From a virus, in IMG/VR virus record IMGVR_UViG_3300049629_001312, positions 1 through 22,434 of that record: a DNA stretch of 22,434 nt; one strand, written 5' to 3'. A program made the position numbers and the translations under genes. This document shows, piece by piece, positions 1,908 to 22,434 of the stretch; within the stretch, counting starts at the first letter, position 1; each line of letters opens with the position of its first letter. The notes under the pieces are model-generated. The model did no database searches, was not told the DNA's origin, and saw only the letters and a program-made list of their open reading frames with translations.

Positions 1908-2553
1908 ACATATAATACCAAGAAAATTCGAAAAAATAAGAATAGGAAATAACAAAGATGGAGGATATGTTCTTCCTAAAAAATGTATCGATGAAGGTGA
2001 TCTTTGTATTTCTTTTGGATTGGGAAATAATATTACTTACGAAAAAGATTTATTGAATAGGAATAAAAAAGTTATTGGATATGATATTGCATTAAAAACA
2101 CGACACGCATGGGCAAGAAAAATGAAACTTGATACCTATGAAGAATTCGCAAACATACCAGAAGTACAACAATCTAATAAAATAGTTCTAAAGATAGATA
2201 CCGAAGGTTCGGAATGGAATTTTTTTGAAACAATGAATATGCAACATTTTGAAGAAAAAATTTCTTGCTTTGCTTTTGAATTGCATCTCCATATGAATCC
2301 TAAAAAAACACCATTATCAGTTATGGAAAAGATGCTTGATACACATTATGTCGCTCATGTTCATGGGAATAATTATGGAAATTGTAAGGAACTAGTTCCA
2401 GTTGCATTGGAAATTACACTGGTAAATAAGAAATATTTTGACAACCCACCAATTGATATTCAAAAATATCCTATTAAAAATTTAGACTATGTAAACAAAC
2501 CGGGACGCATAGAATTAGATTTGCCTTGGTTGCATAGTATTAAGCTGTTGTGA
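1882..2553 (+). CDS. FkbM-like SAM-dependent methyltransferase (223 aa)
   Basis: Predicted class I SAM-dependent methyltransferase related to the FkbM family (Methyltransf_21), which O-methylates sugars and other small metabolites. Visible marks: an N-terminal RIGNNKDGGYVLP segment (about residues 20-32), a Gly-rich SAM-binding strand and loop SFGLGNNITYEKDL (44-57), the acidic VIGYD strand end, and the typical LKIDTEGSEW motif (103-112). ATG 1882 is preferred, with AAAGGT about 11 bases upstream. The frame is open further upstream but would then overlap the channel gene by 62 bases instead of 26. The last 39 bases overlap the convergent HEXXH gene (2515-3201). Substrate unknown; modification of phage or host surface glycans is inference. 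Confidence 0.72.
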   Translation: MQIFQWMNKHIIPRKFEKIRIGNNKDGGYVLPKKCIDEGDLCISFGLGNNITYEKDLLNRNKKVIGYDIALKTRHAWARKMKLDTYEEFANIPEVQQSNKIVLKIDTEGSEWNFFETMNMQHFEEKISCFAFELHLHMNPKKTPLSVMEKMLDTHYVAHVHGNNYGNCKELVPVALEITLVNKKYFDNPPIDIQKYPIKNLDYVNKPGRIELDLPWLHSIKLL

Positions 2554-3201
2554 TTGAACTTTGTTTGGCTGCATAGTATTAGGCTGTTGTGATTGACCTT
2601 TGCTTCGATATGACGCTAGTATAGGTATTTGTTGGCGAATAACCTGCCAATGTTTGGATACCCAATCTATGAATATTTTTTCAGCCCTTACAGGACCAAC
2701 TTCACTTGTTGTTCCCGTTGTTTGCAACTCAATCTCATGAGTGCATTCGTGAACAATCGTACTGGCTATTTCAATTATAGCATCCAAAGTATCTCCGTGA
2801 GTTGCTAAATGCTTTTGAACATTTACACGAATTACATCTGATGGCTGTAATTGATTTACATCTATATCTGGAATGTATTTCTTGATAACAGCATTAGGAA
2901 CTGTATTTAACTTTTGATTCATCATAATGTCAGAACCAAATTTCATTTTGATCTTGTTTGCAACAGAAGCCCCTACAATTTTTTTATTTTCTGCTGAACT
3001 ATAAAGACCATAAGCACCTGATTGCAATAACGCAATGGTGCTTATATTTTTAAGTAACTTCTGACCTGTCAATCTATCGTAAAGTTGTACTAACTTTACT
3101 GAATATTTTGCACTTTTATATGCAGAATCAATTTGGGTCTCATCGACATTTTCTGTGCCAATGGTAGAACCTTGCTCATAAAACCATTTTGAAAAATTCA
3201 T
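2515..3201 (-). CDS. HEXXH-containing putative metallopeptidase-like protein (228 aa)
   Basis: The sequence IVHECTHEIE gives a zinc-protease-type HEXXH motif (H151, E152, H155 counted from the chosen start). Candidate third ligands are the glutamates about 12 and 19 residues after the second His. The surrounding predicted helix (AIIEIASTIVHECTHEIEL) is the usual HEXXH setting. No signal peptide. The start is set at the second Met (3201), because GGAAGG lies a few bases upstream; the ATG at 3213 is possible. The C-terminus is a Gln-rich tail made of two 13-residue repeats (QSQQPNTMQPNKV / QSQQLNTMQPRQI) encoded by a 39-bp tandem repeat. Protease activity is inferred only from the motif. Confidence 0.68.
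   Translation of the reverse strand: MNFSKWFYEQGSTIGTENVDETQIDSAYKSAKYSVKLVQLYDRLTGQKLLKNISTIALLQSGAYGLYSSAENKKIVGASVANKIKMKFGSDIMMNQKLNTVPNAVIKKYIPDIDVNQLQPSDVIRVNVQKHLATHGDTLDAIIEIASTIVHECTHEIELQTTGTTSEVGPVRAEKIFIDWVSKHWQVIRQQIPILASYRSKGQSQQPNTMQPNKVQSQQLNTMQPRQI
2526..2602. repeat. Two-copy 39-bp tandem repeat
   Basis: Two 38-base copies at 2526-2563 and 2565-2602, period 39 bases, differ at three positions by eye. The period is 13 codons, so the repeat stays in frame in the minus-strand HEXXH gene and encodes its Gln-rich tail. Copy 1 also covers the final codons and stop of the plus-strand methyltransferase gene. Confidence 0.85.
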
Positions 3202-3244
3202 AATACCTTCCATGAAAGTATCTATGATTCAAAATGTTATTTTA

Positions 3245-3938: not shown

Positions 3939-5078
3939 TTATTTAGTTTTTTTTCTTATCTTTTCGATAAAAGATCTCATATTTTTTTCATTATAAACAT
4001 GACCAAATAAATTGATTTCTGTCCAAACCTCAAACGATATACCAAGTTCTTTTGCTTTTATTTTAGCAGCATTGATTTTACATATGACAACTTCATCACT
4101 TAACCATTTCTCTGGTTTTACTTCGACTAATTTTTTTGATTCATCTTTATATTCTATTAAGATATCAATGATGTAGGAGGAGGTTATTTCTTTTATTGGA
4201 TTAAAATATTCAACTTCAATTTTTTCTACAAAATAATTTTTTACAAAATCGTCTTCGTCTAATTTTAAATATGCTTTCTTCTCATAGGACGATCTATAAA
4301 ATACTCTTCCAGCTTTTGAAGATTCATGCCAGCCACTCAAATGATGAAGTTTTGGATCAAAACCTTTTTTGTATTGTGCGACAGTAGCTTTTGAAATATT
4401 CTCTTTATGCTCTCTGGTGAACCCTCCAGTTTCTTCAAGCATTTTCTTTCTGCCTTCTGAAATATTTTGGCAATGCTCTTCAGAAAATTCTTTTCCCATG
4501 TGGGATTCAGACATTTTTTGTTTTGTTTCTTCGGAATGAACTTTTCCTAACATTCCATTAATGCAATGATTTTCGATAATATTTTTTGTTGCTCTGGCTA
4601 TACCTTCTGGATTATTTTTCATGTAATTACTTAGTTTTTTCTTAAACTCTTCGCTACGCTTGATTCCAGTAAGACTCATGCGAATTTTTTCTTTTTGTTC
4701 TTCGCTAATTTCTTTTCCTAATTGAATGCAACTTTTACAAAGCTGTAAATACGGTTCTTGTAATGAACCATAATAATTGCGTTTTTTCATTTGACGGCAA
4801 TGATTTCCATCGTGTTTTGGATGAGGACAATAAACATTAACAATTTCTTCTGTTTGTCGATTTTCTCCAACTTTGTTTACTGGATTGTTGTGATGCATAT
4901 AACATTTTCTGCAGATAAAACTTTCGCCATCATTTTTTAATATGTTTCTTTTGGCTGGTTGCTTTCCAATGATAATAATTTCATCTTTTGGTTCGTGTTG
5001 TGGATGATCACAATTTATCTCAATCTTTTCTATATCTTTAAATGTTATATACTTAAATTTAAATTCTTCTATATTCAT
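3939..5078 (-). CDS. Free-standing homing-type endonuclease: zinc fingers, NUMOD3 repeats, PD-(D/E)XK domain (379 aa)
   Basis: Residues 20-120 hold two Cys/His clusters (CDHPQH with CRKC; CPHPKH with CKSC), probably zinc-binding. Residues 124-235 contain NUMOD3-type DNA-binding modules (SEEQKEKIRMSLTGIKRSEE, HSEETKQKMSESHMGKEFSE, FTREHKENISKA), as in phage homing endonucleases. Residues 258-355 look like a PD-(D/E)XK nuclease of TnsA-like type: SSYEKKAYLKL (E266), YIIDILIEY (D305), LVEVKPEKW (E319, K321) and FEVWTE. The modules are thus visible, but the pairing of NUMOD3 with this nuclease fold is less usual than with GIY-YIG or HNH. It would cut DNA at a site absent from genomes that carry it. 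It has its own promoter (5099-5127), AAGGAG before ATG 5078, and sits just after the capsid terminator. Confidence 0.8.
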   Translation of the reverse strand: MNIEEFKFKYITFKDIEKIEINCDHPQHEPKDEIIIIGKQPAKRNILKNDGESFICRKCYMHHNNPVNKVGENRQTEEIVNVYCPHPKHDGNHCRQMKKRNYYGSLQEPYLQLCKSCIQLGKEISEEQKEKIRMSLTGIKRSEEFKKKLSNYMKNNPEGIARATKNIIENHCINGMLGKVHSEETKQKMSESHMGKEFSEEHCQNISEGRKKMLEETGGFTREHKENISKATVAQYKKGFDPKLHHLSGWHESSKAGRVFYRSSYEKKAYLKLDEDDFVKNYFVEKIEVEYFNPIKEITSSYIIDILIEYKDESKKLVEVKPEKWLSDEVVICKINAAKIKAKELGISFEVWTEINLFGHVYNEKNMRSFIEKIRKKTK

Positions 5079-7645: not shown

Positions 7646-8323
7646 TCAAACAATTTTTGATTTAATACTTTTTGTTTGATCCTCGATTATTCCACCCAAG
7701 CAAGCAATTAACGCTTCTTTGCTAACTCTATGTATGCTGCTACTTTCATTTTTAGCAGGTATTTCCATAGAATTATTTATTGGAGCGTAATTTTCTCGCT
7801 TGTTATTTACCACCTTCTCCTGAAAGGCAGCGTGTGTGCTTGGATCTGCAACCGCATCAAAAGTTAAGAGTTTATAGCTCTCGCCAATGACAAGGATGCC
7901 GTTCTCGTCCACTTTGCCGTTGCCTACGCCACGGCTACTAATTCCGACTCGTACACCATCATTGATAAGTGCTTTGAGGATTCTTCCATGTGGAGTATTA
8001 AGAATCTCTCCCTCACCCATGAGGTTATTGCCTTCCCACCACAACTTTGTAATGACATGAGATGCCTTTTCAAAGTGAATGATAGAATCAGTGGGATGGT
8101 CAAGTTCGCCAACCAACCCACGAGATTCAATTACTGGCAAAAGTTTCTTTACATTTTCATCGAGGACTCCGTGTGGATACATCCTCTTATTTTTGTTAAC
8201 AGCTTCGGCTTCTTGGAATTTTCCTCTAAACTTAGTGAGTCCTTTATCGGTGGATTCATTAAGATTTAGAAAGAGTCCTCCATTATTGCAGGAGTCAACA
8301 AGTAGCATTTTGTTGTCGCTCAT
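7646..8323 (-). CDS. 21: Prohead core protease, T4 gp21 type, peptidase family S77 (225 aa)
   Basis: Serine protease packaged in the prohead core that cleaves capsid, core and scaffold proteins after hydrophobic-x-Glu sites, then destroys itself. Diagnostic segments: LTKFRGKFQEAEAVNKNKRMYP (29-50, part of the beta-rich N-domain), VGELDHPTDS with catalytic His76, GISSRGVG with the nucleophile at Ser129/Ser130, and LLTFDAVADPSTHAAF with the acidic member at Asp156 or Asp160. Length matches T4 gp21 (212 aa). The tail after residue 170 is Asn/Ser-rich and may be autocleaved. It is followed by the scaffold and capsid genes in the classic order. Confidence 0.93.
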   Translation of the reverse strand: MSDNKMLLVDSCNNGGLFLNLNESTDKGLTKFRGKFQEAEAVNKNKRMYPHGVLDENVKKLLPVIESRGLVGELDHPTDSIIHFEKASHVITKLWWEGNNLMGEGEILNTPHGRILKALINDGVRVGISSRGVGNGKVDENGILVIGESYKLLTFDAVADPSTHAAFQEKVVNNKRENYAPINNSMEIPAKNESSSIHRVSKEALIACLGGIIEDQTKSIKSKIV

Positions 8324-10962: not shown

Positions 10963-13900
10963 TTAACTCATTGTGCTATCATCACGATCTTCATGATCTT
11001 GTTCTATTCCATAATTTATAATTTCAAGATTGTACTTTTTCAAATCATTTTCTTCAGCATCTGGAATTTCATCTGTTGCTGTTGTTGGAGGTTCGCCTTC
11101 TGGCGGTGGTGTAGTTTCGCCTTCTGCTGGCGGTGGTGTAGTTTCGCCTTCTGCTGGCGGTGGAGCTTCTGCACCAAGATCTGGAGTTGGACCACCAGCT
11201 TCAGACCCTATTTCTTTTCCTGCTTCTTCTGGAGTAGGAACACCAACACCTAGCAATTGAGGATTTTGAGACATAATCTGAATTTTTAGATCTTCTAATT
11301 TTTGCAATTTAAGTCTGCTCAACATCATAGATGTATCTTCTTCTGAATACATTAAAACTTTTGTATAAATGTCATAATCTGACATTAACAAACCACTTTT
11401 TAAAGAACCTGCATTTGTAAGTCTTGCTGTTTTTACTTCGGCTCTTGATAATTCTCTCCAATCTGATGGTGGAGTCATACGAATTTTTAAATCTTTAAAC
11501 ATTTCTTGTGGAAATCCACGAAGTTCAAGATGTCTTTCGCATATATCTAAAATTCCATCTTCAAAATTCGATTGAAGTCTTTCGATCATTCTTGCGAACT
11601 TAACATCTTGTGCTGATAATGTAATTCTAGTTGCATTAACATCTTCACTTGAAAAATAACTTTTTGGAAAGTTCAATGAAACAAATAATTTATTTCTAAA
11701 ATAAACAGCATCATCAATTTCTCCAAGGTTTTGTGCGCCCGGAAGAGTTTCAATTCTACTATTTGCATTTGGACGAACTGGAACCCAATAGTCTTCATCT
11801 TGTGCTGGTGGTTGCCATCTTTCTTCTACAAGGTTTGCACCTGTTGTTGCACGATTACCAGCAGTTTTTCTTTTACGAAATTGATCTTTTAATCTTTCCA
11901 TAAAAGCTTCTGCTTTAAATGGTGGAAGTTGACCGACATCTATATAAAACACTCGTCTCTCGGGCGCACGAGTATTATGGGTCGGTATGCCATTGGCTAT
12001 GAAATTATGAAGTTCATTTTCAACTGTAATATCAAAAACTTCTTCTTTTCCTACATGTTCTACAGATATTACATTTTCATATTTCGGCAATTCATTTTCA
12101 GATATTGTCACAGAATAAGAAATAGTTGACGGCATCTTTCTATTTTTTTCTATGATATGACCACATTTACGATGTCTAGTTTTAAGTTTTCCAGAACACA
12201 ATCCAATTGAAGACCAAATTTCCTTGATATCTTCAATCAATTTTTGATTACACAATTCAATTGTAGAAAACCATGTTCCCTTTTTTGTTGTTCTTTCACA
12301 TCCATCTGCATTACAAATTCCTTCGACAAATGCTTTTCTAATATTTTTCGATGCTGTGTGAACCCAATCAGGAATTCTTTTGTTTTTAGCTCCATGGATA
12401 TATCCCAAAGTGATAAAAGTTTTACAAGCTATTCTAGAATCGACTACATATTTACCTAGTTGTTTATGCTTGCTTCTAGTTTCTTTTTCAAATCTCACTT
12501 TTCCAAAATATTTTTTCAATAAATTTGCATAGAATTTATTTTGTCTATCATCCATGCCAGCAGTAAAGTTTAACTGGCATTTATTCTTACTCATTGATCC
12601 ATCGCCAATCAGAAATCCAAAAAGACGAGCAAAATCTTCATCTACATATTTTGGTAAATCAATTCTTTCTTCATTGTACTGACCTTTACTTACAACAATT
12701 AAATTGTCAGGATTAATTTCAAATTTGTCACATATTTCCAAAGCTTTTTCATATGGCAAAGCCTTTCCTTTAGAATACAAAAACTGTTTGACTCTATCCG
12801 CTTTAGTGCTACACAATCTCATGATTTGAGATTTATTTGCGTAGGTATTATTACGGAATGATTTTCTTTGGGAATCACTTATCTTTGCCCATTTAGTTCC
12901 AAATATTTTTGGGATCTCAACTTCTTTATCATTATTCCTTTGAACATTTATAATCATATCATGTTTTGGAATTAAGTTTTGAATATCAACATATTGAATA
13001 ATTCCGTTTCTGTTAACCAGAATTGGATGGGTTGCTGTTCCTGTAATTTCCACATGTTTTGTCTTAACTTTATAAACATCTTTAATTCCATTGTTCATAA
13101 AGTTTATAACATTGGTAATTATAGTGTTGTTAGATTGATCATAAGAATAAACTTGATCATTTATTTGTAAGTCCTTGATGTATTTATAGCTATTTTCGGT
13201 TCTAATTCTTGTATTTCCAACAAGACACAGGCGATATACCACCATTGCATCTTCCATAAGTCTTAATTGATGTGCTGGTCCTCTGGCTGGTTCGATAAGA
13301 GATTGTCCGTAAGGATAGAAATTTCTTCGATCATCTCCAATTCTCATATGCAAAATTTGGGATGGTGCAAATCTTATTGCTGTAGATTGGGATAATTCTG
13401 CATCACTTTGTTGTGATACATCTCCTCTTGCCAATGCTTGATAGTCTGGACCTTCTTTTGATTGTTGGAATTCAATTAATTTTCCTTTAATTGTTTCGAT
13501 TCGATACATTGTCTCTGGTGGCAAAGGTATAATTTTATAGATACCCTCAGCTGGTTTATCTGGATTTATAACTATTTCGAAAAATTTGTCACCATGAACA
13601 ATCATATCTTTGAAGTACACATAACCATATCTGTTAAGATTTAACATTTTTCGATGAAGAAGCAAAAATTCAATTTCTTTTCTAACTTCGTCATTTTTGC
13701 ATTCAATAGTCATAATATTCCCTGCATCATTCTTTTGGCAATTATGAAGGATTACAGAGTCTGTTGCAAAGCACAAATGTTTCTCAACTGATATATCATA
13801 AACATCCATTTCTGGACCTTCGGCTACACTAACAACCTTTCTTACCGTTGCTCTCCTGTGCAATTTTCTAATTTCTTTTAGTGTGAATCCATTCTTTTGA

Positions 13901-14733
13901 ATCATACTATCGATAGTATTCCAATCATGTTCCATTATTTTGGCGATTTGTCTTACTGGAATGTCGCTTCCAATTAGTCTGCAAGCTCTATTTAACTTTT
14001 CATATTCGGGAGTTATTTTGCCACTTTTCCAATCATCTACAAATTGTCGTTCATGAATCCATCCTTTATCAAATGAAAATATTCTTGGAAATTGATTCAC
14101 TCTAAGATTTGTTAAATTTTGATTGGCTGGAATACGATAAAATGGCATTAATTCATCGCCAAATTCAAGTTCTCCGCAAGGAATCCATTCGCCATTTCGT
14201 TTTAAAATGCGATGATCTGGTGTTGCGTATATGATTTTTCCATCATCTAGAACAACTTCAACAGTTTTGGCTTTCTTTACAAGTCTTGGAGCAAATGCCC
14301 ATCCAAGTGTGTAATCTCTTTTTTCTAAGTTGTAGCAATAAACTAAAAATCTTTCATTAGCTTTGTTTTTTGTGAGCCATTCTATAGTTTGGTAGCCATG
14401 TGGAGTTGCAATCAATGTATCTCCGCTGACGCATGCTTCATCAGCGAATACGGTCATAGCCATTTCAATTTCTGGTAAATTTCTTAGTCTTTCGTATTCT
14501 TTATATCTTGAAGATCGATTACCAAGTGTGGTAGTATCGATCATATCATAGGTTTGACGAAGGTTGATGTAATTACTTGGACCTTGTCCAGCAACTAATT
14601 CGCCGCCAGTTTGCAAAGCATCAGCCTGAGAAATCCCTGCACCAGAAAATTTAGAAGAATCTTTTCTTTTTGCTAGTGGGTCTTTTTCTGTGGCGTATGT
14701 AAATAGCTTAAAAAAATCTGACCAAAGTGTCAT
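10963..14733 (-). CDS. 20: Portal protein, T4 gp20 type, interrupted by two inteins (1256 aa precursor)
   Basis: The portal ring at one head vertex starts head assembly and is the DNA gateway. After removal of both inteins the extein is about 607 aa, near the gp20 size (524 in T4). Extein segments: residues 1-100, 332-502 and 921-1256. Diagnostic parts: YKEYERLRNLPEIEMAMTVF, IIPLPPETMYRIE, the signature TRAPERRVFYIDVGQLPPFK, DYWVPVRPNANSRIETLPGA, then FRNKLFVSLNFPKSYF. Insertions are after DEA100 (joined to C332) and after YRL502 (joined to T921). The tail is a PPPAEGETT repeat (27-bp DNA period, 11101-11160) and a charged end. GAGG precedes ATG 14733. All extein and intein boundaries stay in one open frame, so splicing is at protein level. 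Confidence 0.95.
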   Translation of the reverse strand: MTLWSDFFKLFTYATEKDPLAKRKDSSKFSGAGISQADALQTGGELVAGQGPSNYINLRQTYDMIDTTTLGNRSSRYKEYERLRNLPEIEMAMTVFADEACVSGDTLIATPHGYQTIEWLTKNKANERFLVYCYNLEKRDYTLGWAFAPRLVKKAKTVEVVLDDGKIIYATPDHRILKRNGEWIPCGELEFGDELMPFYRIPANQNLTNLRVNQFPRIFSFDKGWIHERQFVDDWKSGKITPEYEKLNRACRLIGSDIPVRQIAKIMEHDWNTIDSMIQKNGFTLKEIRKLHRRATVRKVVSVAEGPEMDVYDISVEKHLCFATDSVILHNCQKNDAGNIMTIECKNDEVRKEIEFLLLHRKMLNLNRYGYVYFKDMIVHGDKFFEIVINPDKPAEGIYKIIPLPPETMYRIETIKGKLIEFQQSKEGPDYQALARGDVSQQSDAELSQSTAIRFAPSQILHMRIGDDRRNFYPYGQSLIEPARGPAHQLRLMEDAMVVYRLCLVGNTRIRTENSYKYIKDLQINDQVYSYDQSNNTIITNVINFMNNGIKDVYKVKTKHVEITGTATHPILVNRNGIIQYVDIQNLIPKHDMIINVQRNNDKEVEIPKIFGTKWAKISDSQRKSFRNNTYANKSQIMRLCSTKADRVKQFLYSKGKALPYEKALEICDKFEINPDNLIVVSKGQYNEERIDLPKYVDEDFARLFGFLIGDGSMSKNKCQLNFTAGMDDRQNKFYANLLKKYFGKVRFEKETRSKHKQLGKYVVDSRIACKTFITLGYIHGAKNKRIPDWVHTASKNIRKAFVEGICNADGCERTTKKGTWFSTIELCNQKLIEDIKEIWSSIGLCSGKLKTRHRKCGHIIEKNRKMPSTISYSVTISENELPKYENVISVEHVGKEEVFDITVENELHNFIANGIPTHNTRAPERRVFYIDVGQLPPFKAEAFMERLKDQFRKRKTAGNRATTGANLVEERWQPPAQDEDYWVPVRPNANSRIETLPGAQNLGEIDDAVYFRNKLFVSLNFPKSYFSSEDVNATRITLSAQDVKFARMIERLQSNFEDGILDICERHLELRGFPQEMFKDLKIRMTPPSDWRELSRAEVKTARLTNAGSLKSGLLMSDYDIYTKVLMYSEEDTSMMLSRLKLQKLEDLKIQIMSQNPQLLGVGVPTPEEAGKEIGSEAGGPTPDLGAEAPPPAEGETTPPPAEGETTPPPEGEPPTTATDEIPDAEENDLKKYNLEIINYGIEQDHEDRDDSTMS
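11101..11160. repeat. 27-bp tandem repeat in portal 3' end
   Basis: Copies at 11101-11127 and 11128-11154 are identical by eye, followed by a partial third copy. They encode the nine-residue unit PPPAEGETT in the disordered C-terminal region of the portal protein. A diverged copy lies just to the left. Confidence 0.85.
11974..13227 (-). mobile_element. Portal intein 2: full-length intein with LAGLIDADG endonuclease (418 aa)
   Basis: Residues 503-920 of the portal precursor. The first residue is C503 in CLVGNTRIRT (block A); block B is GTATHPIL with T566 and H569; block F is EVFDITVENELHNFI; block G is GIPTHN with H919 and N920, and T921 is the +1 nucleophile. Two dodecapeptide motifs, RLFGFLIGDGSM (D711) and FVEGICNADGCE (D810), mark a two-repeat LAGLIDADG homing endonuclease. 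Both catalytic aspartates are present, so it looks active. Residues about 600-690 are basic and helical and may add DNA contacts. The insertion lies immediately before the conserved RAPERRVFYIDVG of gp20. Read directly from sequence; activity is inferred. Confidence 0.93.
13741..14433 (-). mobile_element. Portal intein 1: mini-intein with HTH-like insert (231 aa)
   Basis: Residues 101-331 of the portal precursor. Block A is CVSGDTLIATPHGY (C101); block B is YATPDHRILKRNGEW (T171, H174); block F is MDVYDISVEKHLCFA; block G is SVILHN (H330, N331), with C332 as +1 nucleophile. All splicing residues are present. No LAGLIDADG, HNH or GIY-YIG motif is seen. Instead residues about 205-295 form a helical insert (EYEKLNRACRLIGSDIPVRQ, then IAKIMEHDWNTIDSMI) resembling a helix-turn-helix DNA-binding domain. 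It may be a decayed homing intein or one that moves with help in trans. Boundaries checked at codon level: TGC at 14431-14433 and AAT at 13741-13743. Confidence 0.9.
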
Positions 14734-15395: not shown

Positions 15396-15608
15396 ATGAA
15401 ATTTAAAAATTGGTTATCTAAAAAATCTGAAAATTTTAATATTGGCATTTCTGATATTGGACCCGACTCTCATGATATGCTCCCGCCCATGGATAGTGCG
15501 GGAGCATTTCAAACAATTGGTGATGATAAACCGCCAGTAAATAAGAAAACAAGATCTGTAAAGAAATGTAATTGTGGAAAAAAGAATCATTTTGGAAAAA
15601 GAATATAA
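15396..15608 (+). CDS. Short hypothetical protein with Cys-x-Cys motif (70 aa)
   Basis: Follows the sulfotransferase-like gene by three bases, so likely in the same operon. Starts MKFKNWLSKKSENFNIGISD, has a Met/Pro/Ser-rich middle and a basic tail KKTRSVKKCNCGKKNHFGKR with C-N-C and a His, perhaps a metal-binding tail. There is no strong Shine-Dalgarno; translation is probably coupled. The gene contains a strong GC-rich 10-bp hairpin at 15477-15507, and its last 22 bases overlap the end of the convergent cysteine-protease gene. It could be a structural-head appendage; nothing certain. Confidence 0.6.
   Translation: MKFKNWLSKKSENFNIGISDIGPDSHDMLPPMDSAGAFQTIGDDKPPVNKKTRSVKKCNCGKKNHFGKRI
15477..15507 (+). 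other. GC-rich perfect hairpin inside a coding region
   Basis: ATGCTCCCGC (15477-15486) and GCGGGAGCAT (15498-15507) are exact reverse complements, 10 bp, with an 11-base loop. It is the most GC-rich local stem in this AT-rich window and lies within the 15396 gene. It lacks a following U run, so it is not a standard terminator. Structure read directly; role unknown. Confidence 0.75.
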
Positions 15609-16300
15609 TTCTTTGGAGCCAGAAAATTTAAATTTTCCATATCAATAACTTTAATTGTTGATGCCAACCATTTATTTGGAATGTGATCCACATCGGCATA
15701 AACTGCACAAATCCAACCATCCCATCTGCGGTTAAATTCATCGATTGTCCAAGTTCTTATTTTCAATTCTTTATCGCTATTGTTTATATATTTGATAATT
15801 CCTTTTGCTTCATCATAGTGAACCATGACCATAGCATGACCGGGAATACCAAATAATACACCACGCTTTTCTTTCACTACAGCCTTACGGATCAAACTTT
15901 TATCAGACAAACTTGTAGTCTGTTCAAATTTGACATTTAAAGCCATAAGCTTTCTTGCTGATCCACTTGGGCTGCTATAACCTTGACATTCGGAATCATT
16001 CGTTAGGTTGATAAGTTTTTTTTCTTCAGCATATCTTCCAATACATTCAAGTGATGCCCAAACACATTGAATTCCAGTCTTATTATAGACTCTATCCTTC
16101 ATAGGAATTGGAACCATTACATTTGAAACATCATCATCTTCATAGCCTTCGAAATTGGCTACTGGATTAGTAATTTTCTCGTGTGAAACTTGAGCAACGC
16201 TTTGTAAGTTCGGTGCTTTAGCTACAACCAGAAAACACAATGAAAATGAAAGTATTGTACAGACAGAAATCAGGAAAAAACTTGCTTTTTTAGATTGCAT
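15587..16300 (-). CDS. Membrane-anchored or secreted C39/papain-like cysteine protease (237 aa)
   Basis: Residues 6-29 are a hydrophobic N-terminal signal or anchor (SFFLISVCTILSFSLCFLVV). The catalytic pattern fits papain-like folds of the C39 group: KTGIQCVWASLECIGRYA with C79 as nucleophile and Q78 as oxyanion Gln, then GIPGHAMVMVHYDEAKG with H155, and KYINNSDKE with Asn173/174 or Asp176 as third member. The WTIDEFNRRWDGWICAVY segment is also typical of C39-like proteins. AAGGAGG before ATG 16300 is the strongest ribosome site in the region. Export suggests action in the periplasm or envelope, or against a secreted peptide. Substrate unknown. The 3' end overlaps the 15396 gene by 22 bases. 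Confidence 0.75.
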   Translation of the reverse strand: MQSKKASFFLISVCTILSFSLCFLVVAKAPNLQSVAQVSHEKITNPVANFEGYEDDDVSNVMVPIPMKDRVYNKTGIQCVWASLECIGRYAEEKKLINLTNDSECQGYSSPSGSARKLMALNVKFEQTTSLSDKSLIRKAVVKEKRGVLFGIPGHAMVMVHYDEAKGIIKYINNSDKELKIRTWTIDEFNRRWDGWICAVYADVDHIPNKWLASTIKVIDMENLNFLAPKNYILFPK

Positions 16301-16485: not shown

Positions 16486-16872
16486 TTAATCATCGTCTTC
16501 ATCGTCATCATCCCAATCATCATCGTCATCATCGTCATCATCGTCATCATCGTCATCATCATCGTCATCATCATCGTCATCGTCATCATCATCGTCATCG
16601 TCATCATCATCGTCATCCCAATCATCTTCATCGTCATCATCGTCATCTAAATCGTCATCTTCATCTAAATCGTCATCATCTTCATCAAAATCATCATCAT
16701 CTAAATCATCATCTTCTTCTTCATCATCCCAATCATCATCTTCATCATCTTCATCGTCTTCATTATCGTCATAGTCGTTATCATATTTCCAACTCTCTTT
16801 TTCTGAGAATTCTTTTGTATCCCATTCATCATACTGAATGAACAAATTGTTTCTATTTTTTTTATGATTCAT
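16486..16872 (-). CDS. Poly-aspartate protein (128 aa)
   Basis: Residues 1-32 are ordinary (MNHKKNRNNLFIQYDEWDTK). From about residue 33 to the end the chain is almost only Asp and Glu, with occasional Trp, Leu and Phe. It is encoded by a GAT/GAC microsatellite-like stretch (roughly 16495-16770). The net charge is extreme and negative. The start is supported by AAAAGGA upstream of ATG 16872 and by the normal N-terminus, which shows this frame is the coding one; the other frames of the repeat give poly-Ile/Val, poly-His or poly-Met. Acidic phage proteins can mimic DNA or bind cations or basic proteins; here this is inference. Length is likely to vary by slippage. Confidence 0.72.
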   Translation of the reverse strand: MNHKKNRNNLFIQYDEWDTKEFSEKESWKYDNDYDDNEDDEDDEDDDWDDEEEDDDLDDDDFDEDDDDLDEDDDLDDDDDDEDDWDDDDDDDDDDDDDDDDDDDDDDDDDDDDDDDDDDWDDDDEDDD

Positions 16873-16921: not shown

Positions 16922-17368
16922 ATGAAAATTTACAAGGTTTTTTTATTTTTTATGGTTTTTTTATCTGGATGCCAATTTGTTGGTCTTATTAGCCCTATTG
17001 TTACGGGAATAATTATCTGGAAAGACGGCAGAGCGCATAAGTATTACGAACTTGAAGTTGATGTTTTATTTAAAGCGGTAAAGAATACTTGTTCTGATTT
17101 AGAATTCAAAATAACATCTGAATATAAAACTAAAAATGGATATTATGTCGGAGCAAAAGGAAGAGACAAATTTTCATTCTATATTGAAAAAACAAGAAGT
17201 AATATAACTGATTTAAGTTTGCGTATAAATACACTTGGTAATAAATCATATACAGAAATGATAATTCACAAGATTGATGATAATATCAACCTTGTGAATT
17301 ATGATGATTATAAAACTTCTTTAAAATTAACAGACCTTCCTGTTGATGTTTTGACAGAACACCCTTGA
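16922..17368 (+). CDS. Predicted lipoprotein, DUF3568-like (148 aa)
   Basis: The N-terminus MKIYKVFLFFMVFLSGC is a lipoprotein signal with lipobox L-S-G-C, modified Cys17. After a short hydrophobic stretch (LISPIVTGIIIW) the mature domain begins KYYELEVDVLFKAVKNTCSD, continues with FKITSEYKTKNGYYVGAKGRDKFSF given only in part here, and has ITDLSLRINTLGNKSYTEMI. This layout (lipoprotein, then a domain with FKAVK, and TDL.IR.N..GNK) resembles DUF3568 bacterial lipoproteins, recalled rather than searched. AGAGG precedes ATG 16922. The end overlaps the convergent metalloprotease by 42 bases. Function unknown. Confidence 0.72.
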   Translation: MKIYKVFLFFMVFLSGCQFVGLISPIVTGIIIWKDGRAHKYYELEVDVLFKAVKNTCSDLEFKITSEYKTKNGYYVGAKGRDKFSFYIEKTRSNITDLSLRINTLGNKSYTEMIIHKIDDNINLVNYDDYKTSLKLTDLPVDVLTEHP

Positions 17369-19066
17369 TGTATTTGAGCATGATTTTGTATTTATGTAAC
17401 AACCAAGTTTGGGTGCAGGTGTTGGTTCTGGAGAATTGCATTCGCAATCAACTGTAATTCCTTTTGAACCGCAACCAGCGTTATTTTCGCCCCTCCAAGG
17501 TTTTCCATATTCTGGAGATTGTGGATTGCAAGCATTGTTTGGATGACAACGACACATAATTCTTTTTCTAATTAATTTTCCATTTTTTATTTCAAACAAC
17601 TGATTTTCTTCAGCACCGATGAGATTTTTACTTTGCAATTTATTGACACAAAGAGTTACCATTTCGGTAGTTTCTTTCTCTGTGGTTTCAGTTGCATGAA
17701 TTAAATTTTTATCTTTATCTAAAATGTAGATTTTAGTGCATGGAATCTCAACAGAAAATGATTCTACATTTCCGGAAAGTGCAGACAAACCATTTGTAAA
17801 ATTTAAAGTCTTAACTGTTTTTGTTGTCCATACAAATCCGTGATCTGTCATTTCTTGTATAGCATATTCAGATTTATTTTTTATTTCATTGTAATCAATA
17901 TTACTTAACAATTTTAAACTAGAAATAGGAATATTTCTATTGGCAAAAACTTGAGATAAAACATTTTGATATTTACCAGAATTTTTAGTTCTATCATAAT
18001 AAAGCATTTGAGCAGCACAAGAACTATAAAATTTAATTGTATTTGCAAATTGACATGCGTATAAAACATATTTCGCAGCAGTATCTCTTGCCAATTTAAG
18101 AGCATCAATGGCTCCCATGCCATTTTGTAAGTTTTGTTTGAACATACCAACTAAACATTCATACCAAGCACCAGTCCATACTCTACTGAAATTGTGACAC
18201 TCATTTGATAATTGAGTATTTGGAGCATCTTCTGGTAAAGATGCTGGATTAACATACTTAAAATTATTTGAAGCATCTCTAAGTGCCAATGCATAAGAAG
18301 GATCACTAGAAATGTTAGAAATTGCTTTGCCTAATTCTTCTGCCAATCGTGAAATTATATTAGACTTTGATAAATCATTGGAAGTTTCGCTTAATGCTCT
18401 AGTTAAAATTTCATCATATTGCATAATGTTGCATATTGCAACAATATCTCCGAATGATTCATGAAATGCCCAAGCCTCATAAGATTGCGCACTCCACAGA
18501 TCTGGTCTTAAAATATCTAGAAATGCATGTCCAAATTCATGAGCCACAATATCTGTAGATTCAGATGTATATACCATTTTTTTGGTAATAGGGTCTTTGT
18601 CGTAAAAGAATTTGAGTGCTTGTCGATCATAATAGGCATTAAAATCTTTTCCAGCCCTTGGATTTACATTTAAAATACTAACAGCAGCCCACCTCGTAAA
18701 TGTTTTTTTTGTATCAACTAAAGATATAAGATATTTGGCGACTGTATTGATAGTCACATAACAACCAGCAGCTTCGCCCTGCAATGTGTTTGGTTCATAA
18801 CCACCACCGACATATCCTGCAATATTCATTTTTAATGAACATGGAGTTGGTGGCAACAAATTTATCAATTGATCCGATGTTGTTGGATCATTTAAAATAT
18901 ATTTAATTTGCTTTATTGCTGGCACTGGTTTTGGTGTCGGCACTGGTTTTGGTGTCGGCACTGGTTTTGGCTTGGGTACTGGCAATTTTTTTGGACTTGG
19001 TGTCGCTTCTTTTATTTCTGGAGATGAATTGAATAGATTGATTATTTTTTTAAACCATTGAATCAT
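17327..19066 (-). CDS. Thermolysin-like (M4/M36 type) metallopeptidase with Pro-rich linker and Cys-rich tail (579 aa)
   Basis: Residues 28-50 are a PKPVPT repeat linker. The peptidase domain includes FNAYYDRQALKFFYDKDP (142-159), matching the M4 region ahead of the active site, then DIVAHEFGHAFLDI with HEXXH (H176, E177, H180) and FHESFGDIVAI with third ligand E203. This is the gluzincin layout of thermolysin. A likely later His is in NECHNFSRVWTGAWYE. After residue about 390 comes a separate domain, then a Cys-rich end (CRCHPNNAC, AGCGSKGITVDCECN, and more). There is no classic signal peptide; the N-terminus MIQWFKKIINLF is amphipathic. AAGGAGG precedes ATG 19066. It may be virion-borne or released at lysis. 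Its final 42 bases overlap the lipoprotein gene 16922-17368. Confidence 0.8.
   Translation of the reverse strand: MIQWFKKIINLFNSSPEIKEATPSPKKLPVPKPKPVPTPKPVPTPKPVPAIKQIKYILNDPTTSDQLINLLPPTPCSLKMNIAGYVGGGYEPNTLQGEAAGCYVTINTVAKYLISLVDTKKTFTRWAAVSILNVNPRAGKDFNAYYDRQALKFFYDKDPITKKMVYTSESTDIVAHEFGHAFLDILRPDLWSAQSYEAWAFHESFGDIVAICNIMQYDEILTRALSETSNDLSKSNIISRLAEELGKAISNISSDPSYALALRDASNNFKYVNPASLPEDAPNTQLSNECHNFSRVWTGAWYECLVGMFKQNLQNGMGAIDALKLARDTAAKYVLYACQFANTIKFYSSCAAQMLYYDRTKNSGKYQNVLSQVFANRNIPISSLKLLSNIDYNEIKNKSEYAIQEMTDHGFVWTTKTVKTLNFTNGLSALSGNVESFSVEIPCTKIYILDKDKNLIHATETTEKETTEMVTLCVNKLQSKNLIGAEENQLFEIKNGKLIRKRIMCRCHPNNACNPQSPEYGKPWRGENNAGCGSKGITVDCECNSPEPTPAPKLGCYINTKSCSNTSRVFCQNINRKVC
18921..18974. 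repeat. 18-bp tandem repeat, three copies
   Basis: Copies at 18921-18938, 18939-18956 and 18957-18974 (last diverged at the end) encode the PKPVPT units of the metallopeptidase linker. In frame with the gene, six codons per unit. Confidence 0.85.
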
Positions 19067-19163
19067 AATAAACCTCCTTGATATAGATTTTGAAATGGAC
19101 TAAAATATATATGAGATTATGAATCATAGATAAATTAAATTGGAGATTATCTGACCGAAAATC

Positions 19164-19685
19164 ATGAATAAAGAAAAACTAATACAAGAGCAAAGAACTA
19201 TAGAAGCCATGAAAAATGGCTATATGGGATTAGAAGGTAAGTTTTCAAATATAGCAAAAAAGTTAGGATACCCAATAATTTCTCAATCTAGTCCAAATTT
19301 TCAACAAACATTTGTGGAAGATTTCTATGGGTTCGATGAAGAGCCAGATGAGTTGCCAACTATGGATGAAGATGAAATGTTCAATGAAATTGGACACTCT
19401 TTCGATGGGTATAAATTTGGTTGTAATTTAACTGTAAATTTATTTTTTTCAAATATGGAAATTAATGTATCATACAATGGATATGTTGTTTATAAAGAAG
19501 TTGCTGGAGAATTGGAAAGATATATTCCAAATGATGAGTGGAGTAAAATTATTGATGATTTGTATGAATCTTCAATTAAAACAGATAAAAAAATGAGGCA
19601 AAAACAAGTTGAAGAAAATATAGTTTTGGCAAACAGAAGAAAAAAAGAAATATTGGAGAAATTAAAAACAAAATGGGGAATATAA
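19164..19685 (+). CDS. Hypothetical protein (173 aa)
   Basis: Unrecognised soluble protein. Starts MNKEKLIQEQRTIEAMKNGY, has an acidic middle (FDEEPDELPTMDEDEMFNEI), a beta-like segment (CNLTVNLFFSNMEINVSYNG) and a basic helical end (RQKQVEENIVLANRRKKEIL). ATG 19164 lacks a close Shine-Dalgarno; GGAG is about 18 bases upstream, so the start is less sure. The 3' end overlaps the next gene by 13 bases, so the two are probably translated together. No function assigned. Confidence 0.7.
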   Translation: MNKEKLIQEQRTIEAMKNGYMGLEGKFSNIAKKLGYPIISQSSPNFQQTFVEDFYGFDEEPDELPTMDEDEMFNEIGHSFDGYKFGCNLTVNLFFSNMEINVSYNGYVVYKEVAGELERYIPNDEWSKIIDDLYESSIKTDKKMRQKQVEENIVLANRRKKEILEKLKTKWGI

Positions 19686-20791: not shown

Positions 20792-22434
20792 TTACGCCTT
20801 CCTGATTCCAAAGGTGTTCACATATCCAGCCGAAACATATAACCAGTTGGTGTCTGCCATAATCGTTTGTACTGGTGATGATCTGTCAATGAGATCATTT
20901 GTTCCCAATCGACCATCATTTTCTTCATCCCCAATATTGGTTCCCCAAACCCAACATGTTCCATCGTTCTTGATCGCAGCGGAATGATCCTGTCCACCGT
21001 CAACCTGCTTCCAATCAGTTCCATATGCAACCGTTTGAACTGGCGAAGATCTATCATCTGTTGTTTCGTCACCTAATTGACCATAGTTGTTTCTTCCCCA
21101 AGTCCAGCATGTTCCATCATTCTTGATAGCAAGCATGTGATTGTCGCCACAGGAAATTTGTTTCCAATCGGTTCCGCCAGCGATTGTTTGAACTGGAGAA
21201 GATTTGTTGTCTGTTGTTTCATCGCCCAATTGACCATCATTATTCTCGCCCCAAGTCCAACATGTTCCATTGTTCTTTATTGCTGCGGTAAATTTTTCTC
21301 CACAAGAAACGGATTTCCAGTCAGTTCCGCCACATATCGTCTGTACTGGTGATGATTTATTTATAATCGTATTGTCGCCAAGTTGACCATAGTCATCACC
21401 ATCCCCATCACCATTCCTACCCCACATCCAAAGAGTTCCATCGTTCTTTATTGCTGCCGTGTGGTTGCCACCAGACGCAATCTGTTTCCAGTCAGTTCCG
21501 CCAGCTATGGTTTGTACTGGTGATGATTTGTCAACAGTTGTTTCATCACCGATTTCCCCATATTCATTATGACCCCAAAGCCATAATGTGCCATCAGTCT
21601 TTATCGCAGCACAATGTTCGTAGTAGGTTCCGACCACCATTGTTTTCCAATCAGTTCCGCCAGCAATTGTTTGAACTGGTGATGATTTATCAACAGTTGT
21701 GTTATCTCCCAAGCCACCTTGTTCATTTTGACCCCAAGTCCAAAGTGTTCCATCATCTTTCAAACCAGCGATATTGTAGTAGCCACAATTGATTTCAACC
21801 CAATTGCTACCACCAGCGATTGTTTGAACTGGAGATGATCTATCACTTGTTGTATTATCAGCAAGTTCTCCGTTACCATTGCTCCCAACGCCCCATACTG
21901 TTCCAATAATTGGTGTTACAAGAGGTGCAGGAGGCGTGATCAAGTCACCAGATGTGAGAACATGTGGTATCTGGAAAATTTCATCAGGTTCGGTATTTGT
22001 GTCGGTGAAGGTGTAGATGGTCTTTCTGGCTAGATCACCAACCAATGCACCTGCTGGATATTCGATTATCTCGACAATTCTTCCTTCTTCGTCTACGGTT
22101 TGTTTCTTGAATGTGTATATGCCAGAAGCACGACCACGCAACAGTTCCCAATCTGCTTTTGGGCTATCTGGATCAAATCCAGCTGCCGTGATGATAGCTG
22201 CATCGACCTCATTTTCCGGATCGAGCTTGATAAGATGGTTGTTCGCTGGTTCGTAATTAAAACGATTCGCTATTGTGTCTCTCTCGAAGTAGCTTGGAAG
22301 TTCGGCTACATTGGCTTTCTTGTTGAATTTTAAGGCAGATTCCGCAGATGAATTCAACACATACATTTTAATGATTTGTTTGGCTCTTTGAGTCTTTGAT
22401 GTAATAAGAACATGACTTGCGTTAAAATTCTTTA
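20792..22434 (-). CDS. RCC1-type seven-repeat beta-propeller protein, 5'-partial
   Basis: From about residue 155 (counted from ATG 22366) to the end there are seven repeats of about 50 residues, of the form CWTWG.N..GQLGDETT, SSPVQTIAGGTDWKQ, HxAAIKNDGT. This matches RCC1 repeats, and seven equal one closed seven-bladed propeller. The first repeat is atypical (VWGVGSNGNGELADNTTSDR). Repeats are much alike, suggesting recent duplication. The N-terminal 150 residues are non-repetitive and could be the virion-attachment part. ATG 22366 has no ribosome-binding site, and the frame stays open through 22 more codons to the window edge, coding a plausible sequence (NASHVLITSKTQRAKQIIK), so the true start is probably outside. 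RCC1-repeat proteins occur in marine phages; a tail-fibre or receptor-binding role is inferred. Confidence 0.85.
   Translation of the reverse strand, partial: KNFNASHVLITSKTQRAKQIIKMYVLNSSAESALKFNKKANVAELPSYFERDTIANRFNYEPANNHLIKLDPENEVDAAIITAAGFDPDSPKADWELLRGRASGIYTFKKQTVDEEGRIVEIIEYPAGALVGDLARKTIYTFTDTNTEPDEIFQIPHVLTSGDLITPPAPLVTPIIGTVWGVGSNGNGELADNTTSDRSSPVQTIAGGSNWVEINCGYYNIAGLKDDGTLWTWGQNEQGGLGDNTTVDKSSPVQTIAGGTDWKTMVVGTYYEHCAAIKTDGTLWLWGHNEYGEIGDETTVDKSSPVQTIAGGTDWKQIASGGNHTAAIKNDGTLWMWGRNGDGDGDDYGQLGDNTIINKSSPVQTICGGTDWKSVSCGEKFTAAIKNNGTCWTWGENNDGQLGDETTDNKSSPVQTIAGGTDWKQISCGDNHMLAIKNDGTCWTWGRNNYGQLGDETTDDRSSPVQTVAYGTDWKQVDGGQDHSAAIKNDGTCWVWGTNIGDEENDGRLGTNDLIDRSSPVQTIMADTNWLYVSAGYVNTFGIRKA

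Follow-up and report, generated by a model that had tools for sequence, protein, structure and literature searches.

The window analysed here, the whole 22,434-base stretch of the virus record IMGVR_UViG_3300049629_001312, carries an open reading frame predicted, by its active site and modelled fold, to encode an intact gluzincin (HExxH...E), a zinc endopeptidase that would act by zinc-dependent proteolysis. The phages that carry the peptidase form a clade of huge, uncultivated phages whose head genes are of T4 type. The peptidase is the constant part of a module to which a divergent gene (c1), a poly-Asp/Glu protein and, optionally, a Cys-rich protein also belong. Within a known superfamily, it represents a branch that is new and non-secreted, and the conserved module of peptidase, c1 and poly-acidic protein is new here; no description of this arrangement was found in the open-access literature. 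Nearly all that is known of huge phages comes from metagenomes, and the majority of the genes conserved among them are without an assigned role. One of these genes now gains a firm enzymatic identity from its predicted fold and invariant active site. The features of the window are collected in Table 1.

Table 1. Features of the peptidase module and its surroundings, in window positions
Feature	Position	Strand	Basis or remark
Fungalysin/thermolysin-like zinc metallopeptidase gene, 579 aa	17327..19066	-	ORF, HExxH/E, homologs
Pro-rich PKPVPT repeat linker, residues 30-50	18917..18979	-	Sequence
Catalytic domain, residues about 52-386	17909..18913	-	Structural alignment of model
NAYYD, residues 143-147	18626..18640	-	N143, A144, Y146 invariant in 54/54
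HEFGH zinc-binding motif, residues 176-180	18527..18541	-	H176, E177, H180 invariant
Third zinc ligand, E203	18458..18460	-	Invariant in 54/54
H291	18194..18196	-	Invariant in 54/54
C-terminal domain, residues 387-504	17555..17908	-	Model, pLDDT mostly 61-91
Cys-rich tail, residues 505-579, PEYGKPW..NNAGC motif	17330..17554	-	Pattern search
Acidic partner, 128 aa, 73% Asp+Glu	16486..16872	-	Downstream of peptidase
C39/papain-like membrane-anchored protein (putative)	15587..16300	-	Next same-strand gene after acidic partner
TATATAT promoter-like element	19106..19112	.	Between divergent c1 and peptidase genes
Divergent partner c1, 173 aa, conserved	19164..19685	+	In 55/55 phage groups
Prohead protease, T4-type	7646-8323		Within window

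The peptidase frame begins with ATG behind an AAGGAGG ribosome-binding site, and its length of 579 residues and its strand are as originally predicted. The same prediction held that the gluzincin residues H176, E177, H180 and E203 are intact, and all four are indeed invariant in 54/54 aligned homologs, with 22 residues separating HExxH from Glu203. The positions without any change in this 54-member alignment are N143, A144, Y146, H176, E177, H180, D184, E197, H202, E203, D207, R263 and H291, and the phage groups being related, this invariance, like the module counts below, does not represent independent events. By reference to thermolysin, we take this set to comprise the substrate-binding Asn-Ala, the zinc ligands, the catalytic Glu, a ligand-orienting Asp and the transition-state His, with NAYYD as the candidate counterpart of the Asn-Ala motif and H291 as that of His231. 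Identity between the window protein and the aligned homologs is mostly 28-40%. The observation exceeds chance, because the four residues are invariant in 54/54 and the structural model matches M36/M4 enzymes only at Foldseek E <= 1e-3 or better.

Placement within the superfamily was approached by profiles and by fold. Against Pfam Peptidase_M4 (PF01447), the window protein by itself reaches 18.8 bits, short of the curated cut-off of 22.4, whereas 26/55 family members match this profile at E <= 0.01 (best 1.3e-7). Peptidase_M36 (PF02128) is matched by 10/55 members (best 9.9e-10), the window protein not being among them, and the best profile match among solved structures is fungalysin 7z6t (E 0.0041). 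An AlphaFold2 model of the peptidase has a mean pLDDT of 81.9 and a pTM of 0.79, the catalytic domain lying mostly above 90, and all 12 of its 12 Foldseek matches at E <= 1e-3 are M36/M4 enzymes. The top of the structural alignment is formed by four M36 entries (Z 26.5-26.6, rmsd 2.8-3.1, 286-289 aligned), among which residues 52-386 superimpose on fungalysin 4k90 with Z 26.6, rmsd 2.9, 287 aligned residues and 18% identity; thermolysin 4ow3 follows with Z 22.3, rmsd 3.3 and 262 aligned. M4/M36 chains span Z 20.5-26.6, and the M1 aminopeptidases come next at Z about 11-11.6. The viral structure library contained no homolog at E <= 0.001. The model displays the conserved M36/M4-type fold, and the earlier designation as thermolysin-like holds for the gluzincin fold and needs adjusting for the M4 placement, the predicted fold being nearer to M36 (Z 26.6) than to thermolysin (Z 22.3). 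On the model, the peptidase takes a place among the gluzincins that is intermediate between fungalysin (M36) and thermolysin (M4), with a slight lean towards M36.

Relatives in M4 and M36 are classically secreted, and a secreted pre-pro-enzyme is typical of M4, if not strictly defining. In the phage family, no signal peptide or Sec-type N-terminus is apparent, and a hydrophobic N-terminal segment occurs in just 3/55 homologs, in keeping with the original prediction of a protein without a Sec signal; that prediction was equally accurate on the PKPVPT linker, present at residues about 30-50, and on a Cys-rich end, since residues 505-579 hold 10 of the protein's 19 Cys. No prodomain was matched in the window protein by Pfam. 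The linker is preceded by a basic amphipathic helix (residues 1-12), the N-terminal region having a net charge of +8. Such a basic amphipathic N-terminus was found in 12/55 homologs, compared with 14/916 other genes, and the linker behind it is Pro-rich in several; other homologs have no such extension, their first residues already belonging to the catalytic domain. A T4-type capsid-targeting signal was sought by eye at the homolog N-termini, and no common motif was seen. Few rows of the structural alignment extend into the modelled domain of residues 387-504. The Cys-rich tail, by pattern search among 53 phage representatives, is fused in 32, a separate downstream gene in 6 (there directly after the peptidase stop codon) and without a match in the remaining 15; in at least five of these (L070, L071, L073, L074, L079) the protein ends in another Cys-rich tail. 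The tail counts and alignments do not include L056 and L069, whose contigs break off within the gene. More separate tail genes occur in L026, L107 and L108. Linker and Cys tail are therefore variable accessories, and the finding of the tail both fused and split off suggests, at the level of sequence, that it works together with the peptidase. Median net charges across the family are +3 for the N-terminal region and +4.5 for the tail.

A profile scan of IMG/VR found peptidase homologs in 74 loci. Grouped at 90% identity along with the window, LR756511 and two Chloroflexi contigs, they gave 57 groups, of which 55 are phage; the group counts leave aside L014 and L026. The former (MT836994.1), labelled 'Bacteriophage sp.', was dropped from the phage counts because its remaining ORFs look bacterial, and is probably a mislabelled contig; the latter has an intact peptidase frame followed by a separate tail gene. 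A tblastn search of 50,697 phage records matched only LR756511.1 (39% identity) and one bacterial-looking contig, and none of 54 members matched a PHROG. The original statement that such proteases are rare in phages is thus correct for catalogued phages, with one real match in 50,697 records, and not for metagenomic huge phages, with 74 loci. The description as a phage protein is well founded, since the peptidase shares the window with portal, prohead protease and major capsid genes of T4 type, and the capsid protein has 78% identity with its counterpart in the 595-kb uncultured phage LR756511.1. The peptidase is single-copy in 15/15 large records (111-595 kb), two extra matches being C-terminal pieces in the same place. 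In all 14 of these records that have a capsid gene, the two genes are 12-22 kb apart, and the peptidase gene is also near portal and terminase. A tail sheath was found in 4/15 of these large records, and DNA polymerase B, sought as an early-gene control, had no match in any of the 15. Relatives outside phages occur in 123/72,556 plasmid records, which are for the most part rhizobial and in every case cover less than 80% of the query, and in 5/251 genomes from the phylum of L015, so that cellular relatives are sporadic. In the two Chloroflexi metagenome contigs (L015 128-2682 and L016 1219-3729), a peptidase homolog adjoins bacterial-microcompartment-type shell genes in identical order, the gene names being our own reading, and an intervening gene of 154 to 161 aa looks like the peptidase's own C-terminal region.

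Several other genes of the window deserve description. The T4-type portal gene (1256 aa, 10963-14733, minus strand) carries intein material, with an Intein_splicing match in two stretches (2e-24) and weaker Hint and homing-endonuclease matches. At 2515-3213 (minus strand) lies a second zincin-like protein with a VHECTHEIE motif and no Pfam match above cut-off, whose N-terminus, MNFSKWFYEQ, we take to resemble a T4-type head-targeting peptide. Directly downstream of the capsid gene, the protein of 3939-5078 (minus strand) combines a TnsA-like endonuclease N-terminal domain with a NUMOD3 motif and is likely a homing-type nuclease. Upstream of the peptidase module, 20792-22366 (minus strand) encodes an RCC1-repeat protein (PF00415, 7 stretches).

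The acidic partner is a near-constant companion of the peptidase. An acidic ORF of at least 40% D+E starts within 1.5 kb in 43/57 groups, and in four further groups (L031, L061, L071, L073) overlaps the gene end or lies up to 1.9 kb off. Among the 52 phage groups whose contig extends more than 164 bases beyond the gene, 47 have the acidic protein downstream on the same strand, and it is missing at this threshold in five testable groups (L041, L050, L053, L058, L078). When only ORFs of at least 50 aa with at least 50% D+E are considered, the loci of the 55 phage groups contain 45, and every one of them shares the strand of the peptidase gene and sits at its 3' end or beyond it (44 at 0-2 kb, 1 barely overlapping); none lies elsewhere in these loci. 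This placement reflects a conserved arrangement and not 45 independent events, since the groups share ancestry. For the same reason, and because it was calculated with an approximate total length, a binomial probability of 1e-55 was set aside. The acidic ORF was found in 0/12 bacterial loci, and the acidic protein of the window matched no Pfam family above cut-off and no inhibitor family. The partner c1 is present in 55/55 phage groups, and its match rows are divergent from and adjacent to the peptidase in 72/75 cases, the exceptions being L078, L056 and L058. Searching in the opposite direction, from c1, recovered 30 loci, and the peptidase accompanied c1 in each of them (30/30); nine of the contigs were new, and 7/9 of these have the acidic ORF. 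The c1 model (pLDDT 89.9) had no PDB match at E <= 1e-3, its best structural Z of 5.7 involving the C-terminal helix only, and 25 c1 members matched no Pfam family above cut-off. An assignment of c1 as an Alc homolog was rejected, because the single weak match (E 0.0021, below cut-off, in 1/25 members) is probably due to chance. Frequent neighbours of the module are a ferritin-like gene (PF00210, 40 groups; L051 4785-5237) and a CYTH-domain gene (PF01928, 22 groups; L011 2536-3078).

The sequence TATATA/ATAAATA occurs 8-70 nt upstream of 38/49 peptidase genes, compared with 2.9% of random 62-mers, and is possibly a phage-specific promoter. It also precedes 18/30 terminase, 8/9 M14, 6/8 trypsin-like, 7/13 C39-like and 6/12 M28 genes, and was found before 0/15 primase and 0/15 nuclease genes. 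Within the window, TATAAATA alone has 5 matches against 2.68 expected, which is not above chance. An assignment of the peptidase as a late gene on the basis of this promoter was dropped, as the element lies upstream of only 4/31 portal and 0/14 capsid genes (L125, with a misread start, among the latter).

Further peptidases accompany the module in part of the clade. Neighbour clusters match Peptidase_M28 (E 8e-44), Peptidase_M14 (2.5e-31) and Trypsin_2 (1.3e-7) in Pfam. In addition, 14 phage groups have a protein in which Cys79, His155, His161, Asn174 and Asp176 are invariant among 11 aligned; its window copy matched nothing in Pfam, and the designation C39-like is our own reading of the sequence. 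At least one of these four types is present in the fetched flanks of 25/56 groups and at least two in 20/56, mostly on the same strand as the peptidase. An N-terminal hydrophobic segment is found in 18/18 M28, 9/9 M14, 11/12 trypsin-like and 12/14 C39-like proteins, against a background of 151/1391 for all genes of at least 100 aa. Linkage is best for M28, which occurs in 6/15 genomes, each time 3.3-5.6 kb from the peptidase gene; M14 is near the peptidase in 3/6 genomes and elsewhere in the other three, and trypsin-like genes show mixed linkage, several lying away from the peptidase. The L002 contig, which encodes the same 579-aa protein, has an M28 gene past the window's end, and neither M28 nor M14 was matched in LR756511.

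The explanation that we favour, with a confidence that is roughly evenly balanced, is that of a non-secreted zinc gluzincin that is controlled by its acidic partner and breaks down proteins of the host, with the envelope as the likeliest site. The peptidase would be made in the cytoplasm, where the acidic protein may restrain or stabilise it, by analogy with the protealysin-emfourin operon; it could do so by binding the basic N-terminal region and the tail, by acting as a pseudo-substrate or by binding metal ions. Degradation of host proteins would then disable or digest the host in the course of infection. An envelope target is plausible because membrane-anchored M28, M14 and trypsin-like peptidases lie nearby in part of the clade; no route of the peptidase to the envelope is apparent in the sequence. 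A more far-reaching and distinctly speculative version envisages a clade-wide proteolysis system, in which a cytoplasmic fungalysin-like endopeptidase is curbed by a dedicated poly-aspartate/glutamate protein serving as electrostatic inhibitor, chaperone or metal buffer, c1 is a further regulator or docking factor, and some lineages add membrane-anchored aminopeptidase, carboxypeptidase and trypsin-like enzymes that jointly digest host envelope proteins. To our knowledge, no gluzincin has such a poly-acidic inhibitor, chaperone or metal buffer.

The peptidase might instead serve virion assembly or maturation, as a second processing enzyme of T4-type heads or tails, with the acidic protein being scaffold-like or head-internal. 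This would agree with a single-copy gene in every clade member examined, at its steady distance from the capsid gene and close to portal and terminase, with the upstream element that it has in common with terminase genes, and with the argument, in PMC7824862, that those jumbo-phage peptidases that are well conserved serve mainly to process viral proteins. However, a prohead protease of T4 type is already encoded in the window, the peptidase gene lies outside the 20-21-22-23-like operon, and its homologs have no common capsid-targeting N-terminus, some beginning with the catalytic domain; the capsid gene does not share the upstream element, and the linkage to M28 fits poorly, so that we regard such a role as rather unlikely. 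The original prediction of an extracellular or virion-borne protease, which would digest surface proteins of the host on entry or once lysis has taken place, draws on the classical secretion of M4/M36 enzymes, the Cys-rich tail and the envelope-anchored peptidases that some of the clade encodes close by, but the protein has neither signal peptide nor prodomain, no tail-fibre or baseplate domain is fused to it, and the tail can be dispensed with or encoded separately, which makes this reading improbable. The sub-threshold M4 score of the window protein could be taken to indicate a non-catalytic or vestigial zincin that acts as a binding protein; with every catalytic position invariant in 54/54 and open frames across the whole family, we consider this highly improbable.

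The module of peptidase, poly-acidic protein and c1 is conserved over some 55 phage groups with contigs of up to 595 kb, and the near-constant pairing of peptidase and acidic protein points to an unrecognised protease module in giant uncultured phages. If the acidic protein controls the enzyme, this would be a new mode of regulating an M4/M36-type protease, and if the membrane-anchored peptidases act with it, the breakdown of host proteins by these phages would be an organised process, like that of host DNA.

Among known systems, fungalysin (MEROPS M36; Aspergillus Mep, 4k90, 7z6t) provides the best fold and the best solved-structure profile match. Fungalysins are secreted with a propeptide, whereas the window protein has neither signal nor prodomain, differs in its N- and C-terminal parts and does not match PF02128. 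With thermolysin (MEROPS M4) it has in common HExxH...E, NA(Y/F)Y, a His231-like residue and the fold at Z 22.3; unlike thermolysin, it falls below the M4 cut-off, has 22 residues from HExxH to Glu and, with no signal apparent, is not secreted. Emfourin, the small protein encoded with protealysin, is not a poly-Asp protein, and c1 (25 members) and the acidic protein of the window match no Pfam family above cut-off. The protealysin-emfourin operon of Serratia is nevertheless the closest working analogy to the phage module, as an intracellular M4 protease whose operon encodes its inhibitor and which, according to PMC9505478, cleaves FtsZ and RecA. Group-1 jumbo phages have a conserved zincin-type peptidase (AMR59696.1), with function unassigned in PMC7824862; no homology to cultured jumbo phages emerged from tblastn (50,697 phage records) or PHROG (0/54), AMR59696.1 itself being outside the comparison. 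The available parts of two other sources are off-topic for this gene, PMC12660748 dealing with Borg JAMM proteases and PMC9769972 naming a thermolysin-like enzyme in its references only. A bacterial gluzincin with HEXXHX(22)E, described in PMC10815107, has a spacing identical to that of the window peptidase.
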